Of a stretch of DNA of 25,680 nucleotides, positions 2,586 through 25,653 are shown piece by piece. The stretch's first letter is position 1. Every line of letters begins with the position of its first letter. A program made the translations under genes and the position numbers. The notes under the pieces are model-generated. The model was not told the origin of the DNA. It saw nothing but the letters and a program-made list of their open reading frames with translations, and ran no database searches. The stretch is from the IMG/VR virus record IMGVR_UViG_3300026118_000039, positions 1 through 25,680 of that record; one strand, 5' to 3'. The stretch comes from a virus.

Positions 2586-2873
2586 TTATTTCAATCTGTG
2601 ATCTATCTGGCCCGGAATGTTACGAGCTTGTTCCACCGGCTTGTCTCCTATGGTTTGGATCAAATCCCGAAACTTCACAGCGCCTTCGATCCGGTACTGG
2701 TTTGCTGCGGCCCTCAAGCCATCGTCTTCCATTCCTTCAGGCTTTGGCTTTGGTAATTCCTCCAGCAATTGAAGCAGGGCATGAGCGAGCGCTGACGTGA
2801 ACGGTTCCGCGTGCGCTATCGCGCGATGTTTCTCGGCATCTGAAGTCAAAAGGAAGCGTTGCTTTGGTGTCAT
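2586..2873 (-). CDS. Hypothetical protein, 95 aa
   Basis: The start overlaps the stop of the 63-aa gene upstream as ATGA, and the stop is three bases before the scaffold-like start. It looks mostly helical, with an Ala/Leu-rich stretch (LAHALLQLLEELPKP, residues 29-43) and a basic C-terminus. There is no signal peptide or membrane segment. It belongs to the four-gene minus-strand unit at 976-3061. No family recognised. Confidence 0.65.
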   Translation of the reverse strand: MTPKQRFLLTSDAEKHRAIAHAEPFTSALAHALLQLLEELPKPKPEGMEDDGLRAAANQYRIEGAVKFRDLIQTIGDKPVEQARNIPGQIDHRLK

Positions 2874-3061
2874 TGAATTCTTCGGATTGCGAAATCACCT
2901 ATCAGAAACGTGCCGTAGCCGTATTTTTGAACTCCGTCTCGGATTTCCTTCTCGCTCATGTCACGCAACTGCCCGTGCTGTTCCATCTCGATAGCTGATT
3001 GAACCTGGCGTTTCAGGATTTCCAGTTCTTCTTTAAGCGGACGCGGCTCGTGCGGTGTCAT
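2870..3061 (-). CDS. Hypothetical protein, 63 aa; first gene of its unit
   Basis: A small charged protein with a helical N-terminal half (KEELEILKRQVQSAIEME) and a YGYGTFLIG segment near the C-terminus. It is the promoter-proximal gene of the minus unit. A TTGACA/TAAAGT promoter at 3074-3103 would place the transcription start about six bases before the ATG, so the mRNA may be close to leaderless; I see no Shine-Dalgarno. The stop overlaps the next start as ATGA. No family recognised. Confidence 0.6.
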   Translation of the reverse strand: MTPHEPRPLKEELEILKRQVQSAIEMEQHGQLRDMSEKEIRDGVQKYGYGTFLIGDFAIRRIQ

Positions 3062-3073
3062 TCGACAGTCCTA

Positions 3074-3103
3074 ACTTTACGCGATGCGGCTCGGTGTTGT
3101 CAA
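3074..3103 (-). promoter_or_regulatory. Promoter for the minus-strand unit 976-3061
   Basis: On the minus strand the -35 is a perfect TTGACA (3098-3103) and the -10 is TAAAGT (3074-3079, four of six matches), 18 bases apart. The predicted start lies about six bases before the ATG at 3061. It sits back to back with a plus-strand promoter at 3111, only seven bases between the two TTGACA boxes. Confidence 0.5.
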
Positions 3104-3110
3104 TCAGTTC

Positions 3111-3139
3111 TTGACACGGACAACTGGATTCGATAACGT
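3111..3139 (+). promoter_or_regulatory. Promoter for the structured RNA and downstream plus-strand genes
   Basis: A perfect TTGACA at 3111-3116. The -10 is less clear: GATAAC (3132-3137, spacing 15) or TAACGT (3134-3139, spacing 17). Transcription would begin around 3143-3146, just before the first hairpin of the candidate RNA. Confidence 0.4.
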
Positions 3140-3142
3140 CGG

Positions 3143-3257
3143 CGCACTCGATTTAGAGCCGAGTGAAAACACCACAAAACAATTTGCAGCCGTCTGTTGA
3201 TGGCAACGCCGCCCGGCTTTGCGCTCTAAACATCAGCAGGCGGTTGCAGTTTTAATT
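3143..3257 (+). ncRNA. Candidate structured small RNA with two kissing hairpins
   Basis: No convincing gene covers this stretch. Hairpin 1 has arms CACTCG (3145-3150) and CGAGTG (3160-3165) with a 9-base loop. An A-rich linker follows. Hairpin 2 has 19-base arms at 3184-3202 and 3231-3249 that pair without a break as RNA, including four G-U pairs; the same bases on the opposite strand would give A/C mismatches, so the plus-strand transcript is the structured one. The hairpin-1 loop contains TTTAGAGC (3152-3159), the exact complement of GCTCTAAA (3223-3230) in the hairpin-2 loop, so an 8-bp loop-loop contact can form. TTTTAATT follows hairpin 2 directly, as in an intrinsic terminator. The 5' end is inferred from the promoter. 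It could instead be a 5' leader or attenuator of the gene at 3315. I know no matching RNA family. Confidence 0.6.
3184..3257 (+). terminator. Intrinsic terminator or attenuator (hairpin 2 of the candidate RNA)
   Basis: A 19-bp stem with four G-U pairs and a 28-base loop, followed by TTTTAATT at 3250-3257. Inside the loop GCAA/TTGC and GCC/GGC can also pair. It would end a transcript of about 110 nt from the 3111 promoter, or attenuate transcription into the gene at 3315. Confidence 0.5.
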
Positions 3258-3314
3258 GCTGGTTTCCGATGAAATTCAATCATCTGAAGCAAGCGATAAA
3301 GAAATGGGAACGTC

Positions 3315-3509
3315 GTGAAACGAAGTGCGATTCTGGAATTAGCACACCAAATGTGGAGATGGTCAGCGCGAACGCCGTGGAAGGTGAACGGCGAGCAGAA
3401 GGAGAAGCTCCACGACCTGTGCTGCGATTATTACGCCCGAGTAAAGAGAGAGTTGCAGGAGGAACGATCCTTTGGAAACCGATTGATCGTGCCGCCGCTA
3501 TGCTGTTAG
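3315..3509 (+). CDS. Hypothetical protein, 64 aa (GTG start)
   Basis: The GTG start at 3315 is preceded by GGGAA five bases upstream. The sequence reads like a real helical protein (LAHQMWRWS, KEKLHDLCCDYYARVKRELQEE), unlike the overlapping frame from 3269, which is rich in Arg/Pro/Glu. An ATG at 3269 opens a plausible N-terminus (MKFNHLKQAIKKWERRE) in a different frame, so an ancestral longer protein split by a frameshift is conceivable. The gene lies downstream of the structured RNA. No family recognised. Confidence 0.5.
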   Translation: MKRSAILELAHQMWRWSARTPWKVNGEQKEKLHDLCCDYYARVKRELQEERSFGNRLIVPPLCC

Positions 3510-3589
3510 CCAAGTCGTCTTGGATAAACCAACCGCCACCAGATCAACCTAAACAACCCAACCAGAAAACCGAAAGAAAGAAGAAGCGT

Positions 3590-4078
3590 ATGAGTTTAAG
3601 TCCAAAAAATATGCCGGGAAATCGCCATCCAATGCAGGGTGAAGAAATCGTCTATGAAAAGAAAACAGACGAGCAATTTAACGCAGAGTTATCCACGCAG
3701 ATGATTAAGCGTTCAGCCAAAGCTATTGATGTCTCATCAGAGTTGATGGACAAGGCGTTGGACGCTCGCGCCGCAATGGATGTGATGTGCGCCCAGTGGA
3801 AAGTGGGTTGGCTGGATTTTCAGGACACCTGTGATTCCCGATTGAAAGAACTTCGCATGACACGAATGGCGCTGGACACGGAGATGCGTCAGTTGATGGC
3901 GTCGTGTCGAGAAGTGCGGGCGTTCTTTCTGGATAAGGATTACGAACAAGAGCGAGCAAGACTAAAAGAATTTGTTGATGTATGCGAACGGCTACAACGA
4001 CTCAAAGAATCTGGATTTCTTGATTCGGTTGCCGATACGATGTTGAAGCTCGCAGATACTTCTTCTGGAACGCCATGA
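3590..4078 (+). CDS. Hypothetical helical protein, 162 aa
   Basis: I chose the ATG at 3590, preceded by GAAAGAAAGAAGAAG, over the ATG at 3269 because the upstream part of that frame has no protein-like character. The protein is mostly alpha-helical and charged, with likely coiled-coil segments around residues 75-145 (LKELRMTRMALDTEMRQLM, QERARLKEFVDVCERLQRL). There are no membrane segments or signal peptide. It is convergent with the portal gene, with 53 bases between the stops and no clear terminator there. It could be a small virion or accessory protein. No family recognised. Confidence 0.6.
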   Translation: MSLSPKNMPGNRHPMQGEEIVYEKKTDEQFNAELSTQMIKRSAKAIDVSSELMDKALDARAAMDVMCAQWKVGWLDFQDTCDSRLKELRMTRMALDTEMRQLMASCREVRAFFLDKDYEQERARLKEFVDVCERLQRLKESGFLDSVADTMLKLADTSSGTP

Positions 4079-4131: not shown

Positions 4132-6513
4132 CTATTCAGCGGCAGGCTCGGCAGCTTGCCGCTGGATTTTAGACGCTGCTTCCAAATCTGCAATGGTCGT
4201 ATTTACTTCCGCCTCTTTGATTCGGAGTGCGCTATCGACTGCCGCCGCGTCCGCTTTCGACTGCAATTGTTGCGCGTGAGTTTGTTCTTTCTGCCGTGCT
4301 TTCTGAGCGTGCGTATCTGCCATCAGCTTGATCTTGGCTTGGCCTTTAGCCATCTCTGCCATGATTTTGGCTTGTTGCTCAGGCGGTATTTGCCCGTTTC
4401 CGTTCTGTTGTTCGCCTTGTGCTTCTTGAAGCCGTTGTGAGAAAGCTTTCGTTTCGTTCAGTAATTTTCCAAGCGCGTCACCCAACTGCTTAACGATTTG
4501 CTTGCTCTCTTTGTTCTGCGCCAGAATTCGCAGATGTTCTGCCACTCCGTTGGAAGGCCCATTTGGTCCCGGTATCGGTTGCCCGTCGATGGTTTGGCCA
4601 GCAAGAATTTGAAGCCCAGCCAATTCTTCGGGCGTGGCCACGCCTCCGCGTTGCAGGATTTTCTGCACTTGCATAGCCATTGCGCGCAGCAGCTCCTGAG
4701 CATATTCGGAATGATTAACGCCAAGCGTAAGCCCCATCGTGGTTCCCAGCAGCATCGTGGTGCTGCTGATCGTGGCGTCATGTATTGAATCCGTAACGGC
4801 AGCTTTATTTTGTGGCACGAGTTCATTTGTCTTAGCTGGGTCGCCCGTGACAGCGAAAACGAAATCTCGCAGCGCAGTGCGTTGAGCATCTGGATCAAGC
4901 CGATCAATGATGCCGAGCACAAGCTGGCTTTGAGCGATGGCCAGTTGCTTATTGCCGTTCCCAAGAATCTGATCGACGGAGATGTTCCAACAACTGACAT
5001 TCAGACATTCTTCAGGAACGCCACGGCTGATGCAACCAGCGCGGAAATTGCGCACGTCAACATCCCGGCTGTCCTTGATGCAGAAGCGGCGGCAAATCTC
5101 TTTCCACTGGTACTTCTGGTAGAGATACAAATTCTGAAGCATCGAACCAACGAGGGCCGATGACGCATTTACTTCTGCTGTGATCTGAGTTGCTGTCTTT
5201 TCTGGGCCAGCGTCTTCATGGCCGAAGTTTCGATTGTAGCCGGTGGAACTGTCCGCGATCTGTTCCTTGTTCAGATTCAGCACTGTCTGAATCAGCTTCT
5301 CGTTTACCTGCCAGCGTTCTTCTGGACGCAGAAAATTTATCCCGTCCGGGATCACCGCTCTATCCGTCAGCACTAACTTTACGATCCGATCAACGTCAGC
5401 GCTGCCGCTGGCTCGGAAGTATTGCATAGAAGCTTCGAATGCGGCTCTTGTGAAGGCACAGCGCAGCCGGTTCTGGAGATGGCAGACTGAGTAAAGCAGG
5501 AACCCTAGCGAACGAACGGAGTGATAACGGAAAGGGGCCACAACTGAGCCATCGGAGAATTGGAAGTGGACGATCTCGCTCAGCTTATCGGCGTATGTGC
5601 GATTTCCGCTGTTGTAGAGAAATCGTCCGCGATCACCGAGTATGTTCTTGGATTCTTTGCCGAGTCTTCCGCCGTTTATCGACATGCTGGCTATGTCCGG
5701 GCAATCGAGCACCATGCGCCGTTTCCAACCATAATGTTCGTCGTCGTAATCTGTGTAGAAAAAGTCGTAGGCGTTGATGGTGCAGACCTGATCCGTGTTC
5801 CAAATTCCGCCGTTCTCTTTTACGTCTTCCTGAAGTCGTTCCGGGGAGAAGCCGGTGGTGTAATCGTTCGCATCCTGTCCGGTGCCCTGCTTCATGGCCC
5901 ATGCGATAGCGCGTTCTGCTACGTCCACTTTCCAACCTGCATCGACATTCGCGCCATGCGTCATTTGCCAAAGCTTTCCTGGAGTATAGCGACGATAGAC
6001 GGCGAAGTGCTCCATGTTCTCCATCGTAAGCAGTGTGCGCGATGGGATGAGCAAATCTTCCATCGGCTGCATCGAGCCGCACCAGCGCTCGTTATCACCC
6101 CAGACAGTAGGGCCAACGCCGTGTACGATCAGTTGTGACGAGACGTTTTTTTCCTTCTCGATGTAGCGCAGGGCAGAAGCGCCGTCCTTCGTGGCCTTGC
6201 GCAATTCCTCCGTGATGATCGTTGAATACTCGCTGCGCTTGTGACTTGGGCCGCGATCCACCTTTACCGTGACGTACTGGTTCGTGGACAGTAGCGCATT
6301 TCGGCATTGGCTCGTGGCATCGGAATGAATTCGGGATGGCTCAAGGAAGCTGGCATTCTCAGTAATGTTGTTTTGAGCTACTTCTTCTGGGGAATACGGC
6401 GGGAACCCGTTGAACAGTTCGTCGATCAATGCCCGGCGGCGGGCGCGTTCTTGATCGGCCAGCTTCATGGTCCAGCATTCCTGCTCGATGGCTTCCGGCT
6501 TGGTGAACTTCAT
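4132..6513 (-). CDS. Probable phage portal protein, 793 aa
   Basis: A large soluble protein with the overall pattern of portal proteins of the 700-800 aa class. The N-terminus is rich in Arg/Glu (QERARRRALIDELFNGFPP), the mixed alpha/beta middle is Trp/Tyr-rich (WGDNERWCGSM, GGIWNTDQVCTINAYDFFYTD), a Thr/Ala helix near residue 430 (GPEKTATQITAEVNASSALVG) resembles the region before the clip and stem helices, and residues about 690-790 are a long Gln/Ala/Lys coiled coil. The portal forms the dodecameric DNA channel and docks the terminase. Start: ATG at 6513 without a clear Shine-Dalgarno; ATG at 6468 is an alternative. It is the last gene of the long minus-strand unit. The call is from pattern memory and genome context. 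Confidence 0.7.
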   Translation of the reverse strand: MKFTKPEAIEQECWTMKLADQERARRRALIDELFNGFPPYSPEEVAQNNITENASFLEPSRIHSDATSQCRNALLSTNQYVTVKVDRGPSHKRSEYSTIITEELRKATKDGASALRYIEKEKNVSSQLIVHGVGPTVWGDNERWCGSMQPMEDLLIPSRTLLTMENMEHFAVYRRYTPGKLWQMTHGANVDAGWKVDVAERAIAWAMKQGTGQDANDYTTGFSPERLQEDVKENGGIWNTDQVCTINAYDFFYTDYDDEHYGWKRRMVLDCPDIASMSINGGRLGKESKNILGDRGRFLYNSGNRTYADKLSEIVHFQFSDGSVVAPFRYHSVRSLGFLLYSVCHLQNRLRCAFTRAAFEASMQYFRASGSADVDRIVKLVLTDRAVIPDGINFLRPEERWQVNEKLIQTVLNLNKEQIADSSTGYNRNFGHEDAGPEKTATQITAEVNASSALVGSMLQNLYLYQKYQWKEICRRFCIKDSRDVDVRNFRAGCISRGVPEECLNVSCWNISVDQILGNGNKQLAIAQSQLVLGIIDRLDPDAQRTALRDFVFAVTGDPAKTNELVPQNKAAVTDSIHDATISSTTMLLGTTMGLTLGVNHSEYAQELLRAMAMQVQKILQRGGVATPEELAGLQILAGQTIDGQPIPGPNGPSNGVAEHLRILAQNKESKQIVKQLGDALGKLLNETKAFSQRLQEAQGEQQNGNGQIPPEQQAKIMAEMAKGQAKIKLMADTHAQKARQKEQTHAQQLQSKADAAAVDSALRIKEAEVNTTIADLEAASKIQRQAAEPAAE

Positions 6514-6832: not shown

Positions 6833-7465
6833 TCACAGTTTCAAACTCGTCATCCCTGGCATCCCATAAAAGTGAACTGGCGGCGGTGCTGGGCCGTAAG
6901 CTCGGTGGCCATGCAAAGGATGCAGGATGCACTTCCAATCCGTGATGTCGTAGAAATCGCGCTTGGCCTTGGAGTTGAAATAAGAAAGCAACCATGAGTC
7001 CCACTGAATTGCACCGAGCCTGAGTTCTGGCGGGCAATCCTGATAAACCTTGGCCCAGATGTCCGGTGTTGCTGCGTAGAAATCAAGGCCGTTGTCCACG
7101 CGCTCACAGGGTTGCAGGCCGACAGCAGGATCGAATTGATGACGCCATGACGTGGCCATATTCGCGCGACACTTATCCAGCTTTTTTTCGACGTGATGAA
7201 GCAGATGGGTAACAACAATGTCCGCGTTGAGAATCGAGCACCATTCCGGCTGGCACATGCAGAACTCGGCGAGTCTATAGAGTTGCGGGAATGGTTCGGA
7301 AGGAACAAAGCTGGTTTGTTCGTCCTGAAGTTCCGGCTGTGGCTGTTCGTTGAAATAGACGATGGCTTTGAACACTCGCAGCCACGATTCGTGAGCGGCA
7401 ATCTGGTTCCGGGCGTATTCATGGTTGGCGTCAGTGAAATTTCGAATGCTGGATACGGCGATCAT
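6833..7465 (-). CDS. Glycosyltransferase-like protein (GT-A type), 210 aa
   Basis: The start at 7465 overlaps the stop of the upstream methyltransferase as ATGA; the longer frame to 7522 would run 61 bases into that gene. The N-terminus MIAVSSIRNF and a later YFNEQ resemble the first strands of a GT-A fold. WCSILNADIVV (residues 75-85) looks like the N/DxD-type metal and nucleotide-sugar site. The C-terminal third is Trp/Tyr-rich. It would transfer a sugar to a virion or cell-surface acceptor; donor and acceptor cannot be read from the sequence. It is the last of five consecutive sugar- or methyl-transfer genes. Family membership is inferred from fold-level resemblance. Confidence 0.5.
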   Translation of the reverse strand: MIAVSSIRNFTDANHEYARNQIAAHESWLRVFKAIVYFNEQPQPELQDEQTSFVPSEPFPQLYRLAEFCMCQPEWCSILNADIVVTHLLHHVEKKLDKCRANMATSWRHQFDPAVGLQPCERVDNGLDFYAATPDIWAKVYQDCPPELRLGAIQWDSWLLSYFNSKAKRDFYDITDWKCILHPLHGHRAYGPAPPPVHFYGMPGMTSLKL

Positions 7466-8193
7466 GTCCGCACGAATATACCCAATCCTGGATTGCATTC
7501 TTTGGGATAGCCATCGCCCCACATCAATAGGCAGTCCGCCTGCTGACAGCTCTGAATACAGACACCCGTCAACTCTCCCGATTTATTCATTGATTCCAAC
7601 CATTGACGTATGGGCGGAGCTTCAGTGGCATCCGGGCGATTGCGCAGTGGCACATCGTGGAACAGGAACACGGTTCCCTTATGCGTAATGAGCTTCAACG
7701 CTTCAAATTCTTTTTGAGTATGTTCCAGAGAGTGATCGCTATCCACAAACACCAAATCAAAATCTTGTGGGTACAGTCCCGTCAGCACATCCTGGGACCA
7801 GCCTTCAAGGAAACGGAAAATGGGAAAGTGAGAAAAGAATTCCCGATCCAGCATGGGCCGGGCATCTACCGATACCAGGCACGCCCCCTTCTTCCCGATG
7901 ATTGCCCTCAGGATGTGCATTGAGGTAAACCCGGTACACATGCCAACTTCCAGAATCTTTCGAGAATCCGTCATCACGATAAGCGCTTCGATCATTTCGC
8001 TTATTTCCGGCGTGGTGATGAAGCGTGGTTCCATCAATGACTCGATTTTCTTTGTCAGCAAAGATCGTTCCGAAAAGAATTTTTTACGGCGGTTCCATTC
8101 GGGCTGCTCATCAGCGTACGGATTTGGGTGAATGCCGATTCCGGGCCGTTCCTTGGCCTGCATAACCCGAGTGATTTCAGCGTGATTTATCAT
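7462..8193 (-). CDS. Class I SAM-dependent methyltransferase, 243 aa
   Basis: The start at 8193 overlaps the upstream FkbM-type gene as ATGA; an ATG twelve bases earlier is less likely. Motif I is ILEVGMCTGFTS (residues 80-91), the glycine-rich SAM-binding loop. The acidic motif is VSVDARP (about 98-104), and FDLVFVDSDHSLEHTQKEF followed by GTVFLFHDVP matches the DxxH...HD pattern of O-methyltransferases of the Methyltransferase_24/CmcI-like group. It likely methylates a hydroxyl, perhaps on a sugar made by the adjacent glycosyltransferases. No signal peptide. The methyltransferase call is solid; the substrate is unknown. Confidence 0.8.
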   Translation of the reverse strand: MINHAEITRVMQAKERPGIGIHPNPYADEQPEWNRRKKFFSERSLLTKKIESLMEPRFITTPEISEMIEALIVMTDSRKILEVGMCTGFTSMHILRAIIGKKGACLVSVDARPMLDREFFSHFPIFRFLEGWSQDVLTGLYPQDFDLVFVDSDHSLEHTQKEFEALKLITHKGTVFLFHDVPLRNRPDATEAPPIRQWLESMNKSGELTGVCIQSCQQADCLLMWGDGYPKECNPGLGIFVRT

Positions 8194-8879
8194 TTGCGAG
8201 TACACAGGACATCTAGTTGGGGCATACTCAAAGTGTGGTGCGGTTCTGAAGGTTCTATCTCATAGCCCAATGCCTGCAATGGGCGGTAAATGTCACATTC
8301 TGTTTTACCGAATGCCGCCAGCACCGGCTTGTTTACTTCGATAAGAAGCGTTGGATGAAATGCGCCCAATAAACTTAGCGCGCCTTCGATCACCCAGGGT
8401 TCCCGCCCCTCCACGTCAATCTTTATGAAGTCGAGCCTGTCCATGCACGATACACAAAGCAGGTCATCCAACGTTCGCACTGGAATTGATCCCTCCCCGT
8501 AAATCACTCGTTCTGCTCCAAGATTATTCGGTTCTGCCGGGGATTCTGTCATCCGCGCGAATCCCGTACGATCTCCCAACGCCACCATGAACTTCACCAC
8601 GTTCAGGTACGGCTTCATGTTGTGGAGCAGGCATCGGTAAGCTGCCGGATTGGATTCAATCGCGAACACTCTTCCTGTTGGCCCCACCATTTCAGAATAG
8701 CTGGCAGTGTGATCTCCGAGACAGGCACCAGCGTCCACAACTGTTCCTCCTATCGGAATGTACTTTTCAAAAAGACGGCAATATTTGTCTGAAATATCGA
8801 GGCGGCGTTGTTCGATGATCCACTGCGACAAATGACTGTCCGAATCCACAACTGCTATGTTGAAATCGGTGACTGTCAT
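8190..8879 (-). CDS. FkbM family methyltransferase, 229 aa
   Basis: The start at 8879 overlaps the stop of the upstream gene as ATGA. The SAM-binding motif is VVDAGACLGDHTASYS (around residues 47-62), with VFAIESNP after it. The FkbM signature DFIKIDVEGREPWVIEGA followed by HPTLLIEVN is clear. FkbM proteins methylate hydroxyl groups on polyketides or, very often, on sugars in surface polysaccharide clusters. Here it sits between glycosyltransferase and methyltransferase genes, consistent with O-methylation of a glycan. The substrate is inferred from context only. Confidence 0.85.
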   Translation of the reverse strand: MTVTDFNIAVVDSDSHLSQWIIEQRRLDISDKYCRLFEKYIPIGGTVVDAGACLGDHTASYSEMVGPTGRVFAIESNPAAYRCLLHNMKPYLNVVKFMVALGDRTGFARMTESPAEPNNLGAERVIYGEGSIPVRTLDDLLCVSCMDRLDFIKIDVEGREPWVIEGALSLLGAFHPTLLIEVNKPVLAAFGKTECDIYRPLQALGYEIEPSEPHHTLSMPQLDVLCTRK

Positions 8880-9877
8880 GCCAGCATCGCTTCGATCTCG
8901 GATTTGATTTCTGGCGTAATTCCACCGTGGCTCCAATAGGCCTGTTTTCTGTCGGTTGGATACGGGTTTCCGTTACACACGTCAAACCAAGTGAAGCGTT
9001 CATTCATAAAGCGGTGAGCAAATGCCCCCATCGCTGTCCAGTCCATGCGATCCTGTGGGAATTCATTTCGTCCTTCCAGCATGTATTGCTCAAAGTCTTT
9101 CCGGTGCGCTTGCTGAACATGAGCACGATACGATTTGTAGAAATCAATCGGTAGAACGGCGGTATTCATGCACATCGTGTACCATTCCGTGTCCCATCCA
9201 AGTTGAGCATCCGTCGCTGGTTTCCACTGGCCGCAATCAGAAACGATGCGATTGATCGGATGGCGTGGATCAGGAACGCCAAGGCTGCTCCATGAACGAA
9301 TCAGATAGTACGGCTTGTCGTTCCAAAAATAGTGCTCCGGCGTCGTCAGCATTTTGAAGATGCAATCTGAGTCGCTGTGCAGGACGTATTTGGTTCCTTC
9401 CGGTACTAACAACTCAGCTTCGGCCATCTTAACCATATGATGGAGCATCCCTTTGCCGCGCACTTCCGGGAATGGTTCCACGTTGAAATGCCAATTTATC
9501 GGCATCACCAAATCGGTTGCTTCTCGGAAATCTTTTACCGGAACAACTACTGTGACGCCTTGAAAGCCTTTGCAGAATTTGATGATGGAGCGGAGCGCCA
9601 GTTCCAACCACGGAAAATCCTTGGCGTGACTGACGATCAGAATCTCTGTCGGCCCATCCACTGGATTTGGATTTGGTTCTACCATAGTGCCGTCGCGAGT
9701 GTGGTTTGGTACATTGGCTTCAGTTGAGTTTTGGCCAAGATGGTAGGCACATCCGAAATCAATGCGAGTTCGAATCGCGACATCTGGATGCAGGCACCTG
9801 TATTTGCCATCTTCAGTTTGTTCTTTTGGCACTTCATGATTTGGCTCCCAGTAGGCGCAACTTTTACAGTCGTTCAT
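8876..9877 (-). CDS. Zinc-finger domain fused to a DUF6492-like glycosyltransferase, 333 aa
   Basis: Residues 1-50 form a Cys/His module (C4, C7, C28, H30, C43, H46) of the CxxCxYW type seen in small phage proteins. A linker to about residue 75 leads into a transferase-like domain: EILIVSHAKDFPWLELALRSI (79-98), then VLHSDSDCIF with D169-x-D171 as a likely DxD metal and nucleotide-sugar site, and a Trp/His-rich C-terminal half. The fold resembles DUF6492-type putative glycosyltransferases. It overlaps its neighbours by ATGA on both sides, so it is translationally coupled within the cassette. The fusion of a zinc module to a glycosyltransferase is unusual. Acceptor and donor are unknown. Confidence 0.6.
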   Translation of the reverse strand: MNDCKSCAYWEPNHEVPKEQTEDGKYRCLHPDVAIRTRIDFGCAYHLGQNSTEANVPNHTRDGTMVEPNPNPVDGPTEILIVSHAKDFPWLELALRSIIKFCKGFQGVTVVVPVKDFREATDLVMPINWHFNVEPFPEVRGKGMLHHMVKMAEAELLVPEGTKYVLHSDSDCIFKMLTTPEHYFWNDKPYYLIRSWSSLGVPDPRHPINRIVSDCGQWKPATDAQLGWDTEWYTMCMNTAVLPIDFYKSYRAHVQQAHRKDFEQYMLEGRNEFPQDRMDWTAMGAFAHRFMNERFTWFDVCNGNPYPTDRKQAYWSHGGITPEIKSEIEAMLA

Positions 9878-11343
9878 AGCGTGATCGCGCCGTTTATCAG
9901 GTTATCCAGAACCGAATCCTTCAGACGATGAATGAGTACAGTGTTACCCAGTGGCCATCGTTTGAATTGCTCCGCTGTGATCCCGCGCGGTTCATCTCCG
10001 CCGCCAGCCGGATGTGGCATTCCACCGACAAGCGTCCAAAGATGGAACATCAGTCGGCTATTGTGGCAGTGCGGAACTACTTCCTCCTTCGTCAGCATGT
10101 CCCACGCTTGATCCGTGGCCTTCATTGCGGACGGCATTCGAATCGCAGCGTCATTCGGATAAACAGCAACCCCAGTCATGTGCCCCATGTGCGGCACAAT
10201 CACTCCCATCCAGGCCTTGTTTGATCTGTCGTATTCAGATTGAAGTTGCTCGATCCAGTCTTTCTTGAGCGCGATGGCGTCAGCCTCAAACCAGAGCCAC
10301 GGACATTCTTGTTTTGCCATGTGCAGGGCTGTGTGCTGCCATGCCTGATTTGCAGTGTGGGGGTAACGGCCTTGTGGCCGCGGATAAATGAACGTGTCCA
10401 CTTGAGCAAAGCACGTCTTCAATTTTGAGAAGAGCCGCTGCACAAGGATGATAGGACACGAGATGTCATAGGCTACGATGGCTTTGTGTTCAGACTTCAT
10501 TCCCATTTTTTGTAGCCAGCGCGCATGTTTCTCGGCCAACGCTATGTCGCCGACGAAGACGTTGAACACGACAACGATCTTGTCGTTCGTTTCCGGGAAC
10601 AGGCGGCGCTTCAAAAGCCGGATCAGGCTTCCGTCTTTGTTTCGGTGGAACAGCACGGCCTCAGTTTTATCCAGCCACGCTAGATCGAAGGCGTTTACTG
10701 GACTGTCGGCAGTTTTCTCAGCTACGAACGTTGGAGCCAGATTCAAATCTACTTGGCCGTTGGCCATGCCTCCGAAGAAATGCTTGATGAGTGGAGTGTG
10801 AACACCCTGCGATACCATGACTTCGGCGTTGTCCACGTCCCAGTGAACTGGATGATCTCGAAGAACGAAGCGAGTAGCAGTGTCGGAAGGATACACCGCA
10901 ATCCCACTCATCAACTTATTTGGCAGTCCGGGTTGCTGGCATTCATAGATATGGCCAACAAATGGCACAGGCCCGCATATTTGGTGAAAAGAATAATCAG
11001 CGGAAATAGAATCCAGCCACCCCTTCTTCAATGGCACACAATCCGGTTCCAGTAGCAGGAATGGCTCCTGCCATTTCTCCGCCACGTAACGCACGGCAGC
11101 TTTGAACAGTGAGTAAGCCCCAGCGGGCCAGCCTTTGACGGAAGTACCGTTCGTTGTGAACCTAACTTCTCGGAATATGGTTCTCGCCTGATCGCGTAAA
11201 TCAACAGCATCGCGATATGGAACTCCTGCATCGCAGACGATCAGGCAATCGTGCTCCAGCTTGCCGTCGAGCAGTGCGATCCACGACAGGAGTTGGCGCG
11301 CGTTAGCGATGTCGCCGGAATGGGTTAAGAGGCAGATCAACAT
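9874..11343 (-). CDS. Tandem two-domain glycosyltransferase-like protein, 489 aa
   Basis: The protein contains two copies of one domain. In copy 1 (about residues 1-245) the acidic site is LLLEPDCVPLKKGW (E99, D101), then SGIAVYPSDTATRF (146-159) and LFHRNKDGSLIRLL (231-244). In copy 2 (about 256-489) the matching segments are LWFEADAIALKKDW (E353, D355), TGVAVYPNDAAIRM (390-403) and LIHRLKDSVLDNLI near the C-terminus. The ExD acidic pair before a basic LKK stretch resembles the metal site of GT-A enzymes. The copies have diverged, so they may use different donors or acceptors, as in bifunctional polymerising transferases. ATG start at 11343; it overlaps the 40-aa membrane ORF by seven bases. 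Confidence 0.6.
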   Translation of the reverse strand: MLICLLTHSGDIANARQLLSWIALLDGKLEHDCLIVCDAGVPYRDAVDLRDQARTIFREVRFTTNGTSVKGWPAGAYSLFKAAVRYVAEKWQEPFLLLEPDCVPLKKGWLDSISADYSFHQICGPVPFVGHIYECQQPGLPNKLMSGIAVYPSDTATRFVLRDHPVHWDVDNAEVMVSQGVHTPLIKHFFGGMANGQVDLNLAPTFVAEKTADSPVNAFDLAWLDKTEAVLFHRNKDGSLIRLLKRRLFPETNDKIVVVFNVFVGDIALAEKHARWLQKMGMKSEHKAIVAYDISCPIILVQRLFSKLKTCFAQVDTFIYPRPQGRYPHTANQAWQHTALHMAKQECPWLWFEADAIALKKDWIEQLQSEYDRSNKAWMGVIVPHMGHMTGVAVYPNDAAIRMPSAMKATDQAWDMLTKEEVVPHCHNSRLMFHLWTLVGGMPHPAGGGDEPRGITAEQFKRWPLGNTVLIHRLKDSVLDNLINGAITL

Positions 11344-11656: not shown

Positions 11657-11829
11657 TTCTGCCTCCGCGTCGCAAACAGGATGGAGCCAAGCACCAAAGC
11701 CATGATTCCAACACTTGTCATAAATGTTTCAGAGCGATACTGTCCGCCGACGAACATGGATGCCATGAACGCAATGGCCATGAGCACCGCTGCCAATCCA
11801 GCGCCGACGATGAATTCAGTAACTTTCAT
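11653..11829 (-). CDS. Two-span membrane protein, 58 aa; holin candidate
   Basis: Two hydrophobic segments at residues 6-28 (FIVGAGLAAVLMAIAFMASM and on) and 35-53 (TFMTSVGIMALVLGSILFA) are separated by a short polar turn (GGQYRSE), and the protein ends in a basic RRQK. Size, two spans and charged tail fit a class II holin, but no endolysin gene is seen nearby, so the role is uncertain. The start at 11829 lies 14 bases inside the end of the sigma-like gene, and the stop overlaps the next start as ATGA. Confidence 0.6.
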   Translation of the reverse strand: MKVTEFIVGAGLAAVLMAIAFMASMFVGGQYRSETFMTSVGIMALVLGSILFATRRQK

Positions 11830-12130
11830 TTGGTAGTTGGATGGCTCTCATTATTGGCCGAATTCGCACCGGATGTCGCAGTTTGCGCAAGGCATTCGAT
11901 TCTCGCTGACGCACTCGACCGGGTGATATTTTCATCAATTGTCCGGTTTGATACAAAGTCATTTTCGGCGTGTTGAAACGACATCGAAGCACAAACGCCT
12001 CTTCCGTTCTTAGCGTTAGCAATTGAGTTTCGATTTCGACGATTCCGATGGCATCCAAATCTATTACCGGCAACGGACTCACGAGGATTTGTGCCAGAAG
12101 CGTCGTGTTCAGATTTGTCGGTAAAGTCAT
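11816..12130 (-). CDS. Stand-alone sigma-70 region 4-like DNA-binding protein, 104 aa
   Basis: The start at 12130 has a GGAAAGGA ribosome site and overlaps the upstream stop as ATGA. Residues 42-88 match sigma-70 region 4: TEEAFVLRCRF, then TLYQTGQLMKISPGRVRQRE and SNALRKLRHP, equivalent to the helix-turn-helix that contacts the -35 element (the EExVLxLRF...VRQxExxALxKLRHP pattern). Regions 1 to 3 are missing, so it is not a complete sigma factor. In phages such proteins redirect or modulate host RNA polymerase. Residues 1-40 are hydrophobic/acidic and unlike known regions; they may contact polymerase. It is encoded early in the long minus-strand unit, upstream of the glycan and portal genes. 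Confidence 0.7.
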   Translation of the reverse strand: MTLPTNLNTTLLAQILVSPLPVIDLDAIGIVEIETQLLTLRTEEAFVLRCRFNTPKMTLYQTGQLMKISPGRVRQRESNALRKLRHPVRIRPIMRAIQLPNESY

Positions 12131-12363
12131 TGTTCCTTTCCAAACTGTTCTTTGCGTTTCACTTTGATCCGATGAACTCGGCAGCGCCTTGTTCCGCCAT
12201 CGGCTTTTCTGGGGCAGAGCGCGCATAGCCCTTTGCGGATATGTCGTTTCTGGTAACGTCTCTGAAGACTCTCCACGCCGCGCGCTTTCCTTCGAAGACG
12301 ATAGCGTTGAAATCTGTCGAGCGATTTATCGTTGGCGAATTTGTCATGGATTGGAGCGGGCAT
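12127..12363 (-). CDS. Small basic zinc-finger-like protein, 78 aa
   Basis: Very Arg/Lys-rich. A motif CALCPRKADGGTRRCRVH (near residues 47-64) gives a CxxC...CxxH set. This looks like the small zinc ribbons found in phage proteins that bind nucleic acid. It overlaps the sigma-like gene as ATGA. The ATG at 12363 has no clear Shine-Dalgarno but is the only good start; the first 20 bases overlap the membrane ORF upstream. Nucleic-acid binding is inference. Confidence 0.55.
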   Translation of the reverse strand: MPAPIHDKFANDKSLDRFQRYRLRRKARGVESLQRRYQKRHIRKGLCALCPRKADGGTRRCRVHRIKVKRKEQFGKEQ

Positions 12364-24804: not shown

Positions 24805-25653
24805 ATGAACCGACTCACTAACGAAGACCGCGCGCGCGCCGTTGCCTGCCTTGTGGAAGGCAACAGCCAGCGCTCCACTTGCCGCATGACTGGACTCGCA
24901 AGGCAAACCGTTCAGCGGCTCGCTGTGGACCTTGGTGAAGCGTGCGAGAAGTTCGCCGCAAAAGTCATGGTGAACCTGCCATGCACGTCGCTTCAATGCG
25001 ACGAGATTTGGAGCTTCTGCTACGCGAAGCAAAAGAACGTTCCATCGCATCTGCGCGGTACTGGCAAGGCCGGGGACATCTGGACTTGGGTTGCCATCGA
25101 CCGGACGACAAAGTTGATCCCAGCTTGGTATGTGGGCGACCGCACAACGATGAGCGCCTACAAGTTCCTTCGCAACCTCTCGCCCCGTCTCGCGGAGCGC
25201 GTTCAGATTGCGACGGACGGGCACAAGGCTTACGCGCTGGCCATGAAAGGCGCGTTCAACGGCTCGCCAGTCGATTACGGAACGGTCGTGAAGATTTACG
25301 CGGAGCCGTGGGGCGAAGGCAAATACAGCCCCGGCGTCGTCACCGGCGCGAAGCGAGAGATTGTCTTTGGCGCGCCAGACCGCGACGCCATCTGCACAAG
25401 CCACGCGGAGCGGCAGAACCTCACGATGCGAATGGGAATGCGCCGTTTCACCCGCCTGACCAATGGCTTCAGCAAGAAAGTGGAGAACCATCGGCTCGCA
25501 GTGGCGCTCCACTTTGTTCACTACAACTTCGCGCGCATCCACCAGTCGCTGCGCATCACTCCGGCGATGGCGGCGGGCCTGACTGACCACGTTTGGGAGC
25601 TTTCCGAGATAATCGGATTGCTTGAGACTGAGGAGGCTGCTCTGTGCGTTTAA
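24805..25653 (+). CDS. IS1-like DDE transposase, 282 aa, intact
   Basis: Begins with a helix-turn-helix (RSTCRMTGLARQTVQRL, near residues 23-39). The catalytic core shows LQCDEIWSF (D66), IATDGHKAY (D138) and SHAERQNLTMRMG (E202), the DDE set and RxxR-type context of IS1-family transposases, then VENHRLAVALHFVHYNFARIHQSLR. The frame is complete and there is no programmed frameshift as in classic IS1. It starts only three bases after the Lar-like gene, and I see no terminal inverted repeats: the upstream side is coding, and only 27 bases lie downstream before the window ends. It may be a single-frame IS1-type element whose right end lies outside, or a transposase gene domesticated in the phage early operon. 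Confidence 0.85.
   Translation: MNRLTNEDRARAVACLVEGNSQRSTCRMTGLARQTVQRLAVDLGEACEKFAAKVMVNLPCTSLQCDEIWSFCYAKQKNVPSHLRGTGKAGDIWTWVAIDRTTKLIPAWYVGDRTTMSAYKFLRNLSPRLAERVQIATDGHKAYALAMKGAFNGSPVDYGTVVKIYAEPWGEGKYSPGVVTGAKREIVFGAPDRDAICTSHAERQNLTMRMGMRRFTRLTNGFSKKVENHRLAVALHFVHYNFARIHQSLRITPAMAAGLTDHVWELSEIIGLLETEEAALCV

Follow-up and report, generated by a model that had tools for sequence, protein, structure and literature searches.

A two-hairpin RNA with kissing loops, probably a 5' leader, precedes exchangeable genes in uncultured phages

Background

What is the role of a short non-coding stretch that lies between two divergent promoters in a phage genome and is able to fold into two hairpins with complementary loops? 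The question arises at positions 3143-3257 of a 25,680-nucleotide stretch taken from an IMG/VR virus record; this stretch, at its full length, is referred to below as the window. The first-pass annotation, made without database searches, had interpreted the locus as a compact RNA with a possible loop-loop contact and an intrinsic terminator. According to the results presented below, the element belongs to a family of RNAs that, judging by sequence comparison, is a real and apparently undescribed control element, since many relatives keep the pairing between the loop and the gap with different letters. Structural conservation is thus observed, while termination and regulation are inferred.

Anatomy of the element

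All parts that had been proposed for this RNA are present at their positions on the plus strand. Hairpin 1 (3145-3165) has the 6-bp stem CACTCG/CGAGTG closed by the 9-nt loop ATTTAGAGC, and is followed by an A-rich linker (3166-3183; family motif CAATTTGC), which ends with CAAT and runs into TTGC. Hairpin 2 (3184-3249) has an outer stem of 19 bp, formed by 3184-3202 with 3231-3249 and including four G-U pairs, and the T-rich, terminator-like tail TTTTAATT (3250-3257) stands directly 3' of this stem. The minimum-energy fold also contains an inner hairpin GCAACGCCGCCCGGCTTTGC (3203-3222) within hairpin 2, which recurs in family members and had previously gone unnoticed. It leaves exactly eight bases of hairpin 2 unpaired, namely the 3' bulge GCTCTAAA (3223-3230). 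This bulge is the full complement of the word TTTAGAGC (3152-3159) in loop 1, so the suggested kissing contact of 8 bp is indeed possible. Each of the two words occurs only once within the window; the loop word covaries in relatives, and an equivalent bulge is present in 18 of the 18 curated members.

The divergent TTGACA boxes that had been reported are found as well. On the minus strand, the box at 3103-3098 belongs to a promoter (3074-3103, TTGACA-18-TAAAGT) that is reported by the promoter scan and serves the leftward gene 2870-3061. On the plus strand, a promoter-like sequence (3111-3139) was read directly and consists of TTGACA at 3111-3116, a 17-nt spacer, and the weak -10 box TAACGT at 3134-3139, which was not noted earlier. 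The consensus promoter scan of the window does not list it because of this poor -10 box. Hairpin 1 starts approximately at the predicted transcript start, i.e., at the predicted 5' end. Also overlooked was a gene of the same direction (3269-4078, plus strand), whose ATG lies 19 nt past the stem. It encodes 269 aa of unknown function, for which a homologue search returned none; the coding log-odds of this frame are positive, moderate overall, and weak toward the N-terminal part.

Folding of 128 nt of the plus strand yields -50.9 kcal/mol, whereas shuffled sequences average -36.0 (z = -4.5), and 0 of 200 shuffles reach the observed value. As for hairpin 2 alone, its energy is -39.2 in the plus orientation, compared with -25.9 for the minus strand, where the structure is much weaker because the four G-U pairs turn into A-C mismatches; this agrees with the earlier remark that these pairs are favourable in the plus-strand RNA only. 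The statement that such an arrangement is hard to explain by chance also stands without the use of relatives: among 800 simulated strands of 25.7 kb with the same dinucleotide content, only 1 contains a comparable match (kiss of at least 8, stem 1 of at least 6, and stem 2 of at least 14 bp). Regarding the intrinsic terminator, the 19-bp stem and TTTTAATT meet the sequence criterion of a G+C-rich stem with a T run immediately behind it, which is only moderate in the window; termination itself is an inference.

Search for relatives

The same region is present at 99.99% identity in the 55.9-kb contig IMGVR_UViG_3300005719_000016; the alignment ends at window position 312, and bases 1-311 differ. 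Elsewhere in the window, an IS1/IS240-like transposase gene or fragment lies near the end (24805-25653, plus strand), and a run of genes at 7462-11343 (minus strand) resembles methyltransferases and glycosyltransferases, judged from translations only.

Relatives were traced via the portal-like protein encoded at window positions 4132-6513. This protein has no relatives among the annotated phages or bacterial genomes searched; among viral contigs, the first alignment yields about 75 relatives and a better one 59 loci, and many of these contigs are about 55 kb long and represent uncultured phages. An exact search for both loop words in viral contigs gave at least 119 stretches, and among the matches listed the structure is present only in the near-identical contig. 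Since a DNA-level search for the RNA element in the relatives gave nothing usable, a shape descriptor was written, which comprises hairpin 1, the linker, the outer stem, the inner hairpin, and a 3' bulge complementary to loop 1. The initial descriptor ignored the promoter and the ATG, and the T run was counted only for ranking. Beside the window, sequences from L126/L203, L226, L233 (twice), L217, L207, and L218 stand near the top of this ranking, and they share features that were not selected for: an upstream TTGAC (all but L226), a linker that mostly ends with AATTT, and an ATG after the tail. Full contigs added further members (two each in the near-full-length phages G014, G015, G024, and G030, and three in G023), and an HNH-guided search recovered only three already-known phages.

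Clear members have scores of about 36-46 (with tail and promoter terms), compared with maxima of 33.2 for composition-matched simulation and 36.4 for reversed sequence. Since matches with lower scores were assessed visually, the size of the family is known only approximately; the curated set comprises 18 distinct sequences. At least 18 different sequences, drawn from about 20 contigs, display the common anatomy, and about half of the near-full-length relatives have no match with the shape descriptor. Sequence conservation among members is too low for a covariance model to help.

Conservation of the loop-bulge pairing

In the 18 curated members, loops and bulges vary in sequence, yet the pairing stays. 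The complement between a loop and its own bulge is 5-9 bp long, in contrast to mostly 2-4 when loops are matched with the bulges of other members. This set, however, was partly selected by complementarity; the two tests that follow avoid such selection wholly or almost so. A scan blind to complementarity reports 25 sites vs 5 in reversed sequence, and an own complement of at least 5 is present in 8 of these 25 sites vs 13 of 600 cross pairs. Two of the eight complementary sites are near-identical RNAs. Looser settings of the blind scan are swamped by coding noise, while the stricter version, used here, remains usable.

Compensatory changes can be followed in the homologous leaders of G029 and G030b. 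Among the 7 pairs of their kissing helix 4 are unchanged, 3 are double-changed (A-U to G-C twice and C-G to U-A once), and 0 are broken. Over the whole structure 97% of positions are paired vs 26-47% for slid partners; the shuffle control (15/500) is weak, as only two sequences are involved. In the orthologous pair G023c and G033, compared by eye, loop TTTTAG and bulge CTAAA become TTGTAG and CTACA. Homologues whose loops vary without compensation would have refuted the first-pass annotation, and the opposite is found. Its view of a real RNA with two hairpins in contact is thus supported by complementarity kept across relatives, in the absence of transcript data.

Placement between promoter and gene

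Members share the order of a TTGAC -35 box, hairpin 1, a linker ending with AATTT, a long hairpin with the inner hairpin, the 3' bulge, usually a T run, and an ATG. The distance from TTGAC to the hairpin 1 that follows is nearly constant, typically about 34 nt (34 nt in the window), and falls within 30-47 nt for 14 of 17 members. An alignment of 10 sequences shows conservation of TTGAC, CAATTTGC, CTA in the bulge, GGGG/stem end, and the T run.

The position of the start codon bears on whether the RNA is free-standing. It could be a trans-acting small RNA of about 110 nt, with the gene behind it incidental and with loop 1 or the bulge possibly pairing between molecules; the RNA does have its own promoter and a terminator-like end, and 3 of 17 members (L319 +8556, L275, and L346) have no ATG within 30 nt. 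A stand-alone RNA, however, does not need a start codon of the same direction close behind it, and in 14 of 17 members such an ATG is located 6-19 nt past the stem (19 nt in the window). Furthermore, copies within one genome bear different kissing words, which leaves no evident shared target. We therefore regard a free-standing RNA as rather unlikely, and less likely than a leader. Because of this regular spacing to the ATG, the original description needs to be amended: the RNA in the window is probably the 5' leader of the next gene.

A leader could also act at another level than transcription. As a cap, the pseudoknot at the 5' end may block mRNA decay or present the start codon, with the T run being an unstructured spacer. 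The position of hairpin 1 at the predicted 5' end is consistent with this, and so is the absence of Shine-Dalgarno enrichment over random positions in these phages (the window value of -2.7 equals the random median), which implies that other start-site features may count. A spacer, however, has no need of a T run abutting a G+C-rich stem. TTTT is found just past the stem in 12 of 17 members and, in comparison, before only 6% of 1228 ordinary genes (16 nt before the ATG), whose starts in these phages lean slightly towards A and not towards T. The T run is not universal in the family: 5 of the 17 members have only an imperfect one (TTCTTCT, TTTATT) or none. We consider a cap or translation leader unlikely, while keeping it as an alternative.

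The same Shine-Dalgarno statistics speak against sequestration of the ribosome-binding site in the manner of T4-type homing endonuclease genes, in which the 3' strand of the outer stem would hide the start region. Several next genes do encode HNH endonucleases, and in some members the 3' strand contains many G residues 7-12 nt ahead of the ATG. The phage genes, however, are no richer in Shine-Dalgarno signals than random positions, several members lack such a signal altogether, and non-HNH genes are likewise found behind the family. This explanation appears very improbable, and it was rejected since these phages lack the signal to be hidden.

Ordinary genes of the related phages L269-L384 show a peak of TTGAC 35-39 nt before the ATG (e.g., L273 10699-10736), as expected for leaderless mRNAs; there are 62 pattern matches, whereas reversed sequence has 6 and simulated sequence 21. 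Because these genes have TTGAC at this distance, the leader RNA looks like an additional control step that has been placed behind a promoter of this same type and ahead of the gene. The best-conserved part of these phage promoters is the -35 box, which is the element read by sigma-70 region 4. A short protein of the window (11816-12226, minus strand) contains sigma-70 region 4 as its sole domain (Pfam, 45 bits), and it has a clear match in only 2 of 34 relatives.

Genes behind the RNA

Next genes vary among members and encode several types of HNH endonuclease, a helix-turn-helix replication-like protein (L322), and unknown proteins. At a syntenic spot of four phages (L279, L292, L308, and L291), the next gene is different in each. 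From the -35 box to the stem end, these four are 91-100% identical over about 127-144 bp, in comparison with about 71-90% for longer flanking stretches. Such a near-identical block with less-conserved flanks and swapped next genes suggests, at the level of sequence, a fixed promoter-RNA block ahead of an exchangeable gene.

This exchange also bears on the possibility that the RNA is a guide-like partner of the HNH protein, similar to HEARO/omega RNA. In several phages it does lie directly 5' of HNH genes. The same RNA block, however, stands before unrelated genes as well, there is no Rfam match, and the leader RNA is missing from nearly all of the other HNH homologues inspected in these phages. 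We find a guide-like role hardly credible, and since most HNH homologues elsewhere in these genomes do without the RNA, its belonging to HNH genes was ruled out. HNH endonuclease genes are many and scattered in these phages (e.g., L285 4549-5148 and homologues).

A further and more speculative interpretation is an RNA-only gene gate of a new class, acting as a plug-in cassette, with a near-fixed block, an exchanged gene, and a private loop-bulge pair for each copy; we consider it quite doubtful. If it were true, terminated leaders could feed back solely on their own gene via copy-specific pairing in trans, or, alternatively, newly acquired genes could be placed under a control that is already in position.

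Proposed mechanism

The explanation that we favour, with no more than modest confidence, is a cis-acting 5' leader whose pseudoknotted terminator gates the next gene and which represents an apparently undescribed family in uncultured phages of about 55 kb. The anatomy, the conservation with compensatory changes, the placement from promoter to ATG, and the exchange of genes behind the RNA are observed directly.

According to this model, transcription would begin at hairpin 1 or slightly ahead of it, driven by a promoter whose TTGAC -35 box is strong. Behind the promoter, hairpin 1 would be made first, then the linker and the 5' strand of hairpin 2, next the inner hairpin and the bulge, and finally the 3' strand, the T run, and the ATG. 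As RNA polymerase advances, the inner hairpin would fold and the emerging 3' bulge of hairpin 2 would pair with loop 1; because loop 1 is ready ahead of the bulge, the kiss may form before or during closure of the outer stem. The closed pseudoknot would then top the long G+C-rich stem, which ends in a T run immediately ahead of the start codon. Together, stem and T run would serve as a built-in terminator (attenuator), and the next gene would be made only by read-through, with the loop-bulge contact tuning how fast or how firmly the terminator hairpin closes. Transcription and termination are inferred here, and so is whether the kiss favours or hinders termination. Antitermination of the NusG type is unsupported, as no NusG-like antiterminator was found in 34 contigs.

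Regarding its wider meaning, the family is a phage RNA whose structure is supported by covariation yet which has no Rfam entry, and it was recognised by shape rather than by sequence in about 20 uncultured phage contigs starting from one window. Kissing-loop families can thus elude sequence-based RNA searches. In addition, the leader marks a site of gene swapping, often involving HNH endonucleases, so that the way in which these lytic-looking phages control incoming genes becomes accessible to simple reporters.

Comparison with known systems

Covariance models of Rfam 15 give 0 matches in the window at the gathering score; weak signals there are spurious miRNA only (E 2.6-3.8), and one relative has an isrN signal of 21.1 bits vs a gathering score of 44. 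With attenuators and terminator riboswitches the family shares a 5' leader, a terminator-like hairpin, and a T run just before the gene. Riboswitches, however, have conserved bases in the ligand pocket, whereas in the phage family loops and stems vary freely while pairing is kept; the criterion of conserved unpaired ligand-binding bases is not met, as loops and bulges differ among members. Unlike in attenuators, the bulge that contacts the upstream loop is part of the terminator hairpin itself, and no alternative antiterminator fold was found.

Several phage RNAs have a similar layout. The put RNAs of HK022 are promoter-proximal antiterminators with two hairpins at the 5' end of the phage transcript, which cause polymerase to pass later terminators, and the family resembles them in having two hairpins at the predicted 5' end immediately past the promoter. 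In contrast to put, it has a T run after hairpin 2, a loop-bulge kiss, and exchangeable single genes adjoining. The CI RNA of phage P4 and the C4 antisense immunity RNAs of P1/P7 are leader RNAs with internal complementary segments and a link to termination. The family differs from them in having several copies per genome with differing kissing words; besides, no integrase above cut-off is found in 34 related contigs (the control was positive), which makes a lysogenic immunity RNA less likely. In the Pistol ribozyme, the loop of a 5' hairpin pairs with an internal loop of the following hairpin. In the family, however, the partner is on the 3' strand, no conserved catalytic bases are seen, and there is no Rfam match at E <= 10.

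A literature search of limited extent found only one precedent and no kissing-hairpin leader arrangement: RNA hairpins ahead of T4-type homing endonuclease genes (I-TevI, segB, mobE) sequester the ribosome-binding site (PMC2988022). In both cases, genes for HNH or homing endonucleases are directly preceded by an RNA structure; the family differs by the lack of a Shine-Dalgarno signal, by its two-hairpin kiss, and by preceding non-HNH genes as well. As a kind, i.e., a phage leader RNA or attenuator, the element is already known. As far as Rfam and this limited search reach, three aspects appear to be new, namely the fold, the loop pairs private to each copy, and the use as a fixed block in front of genes that are exchanged.
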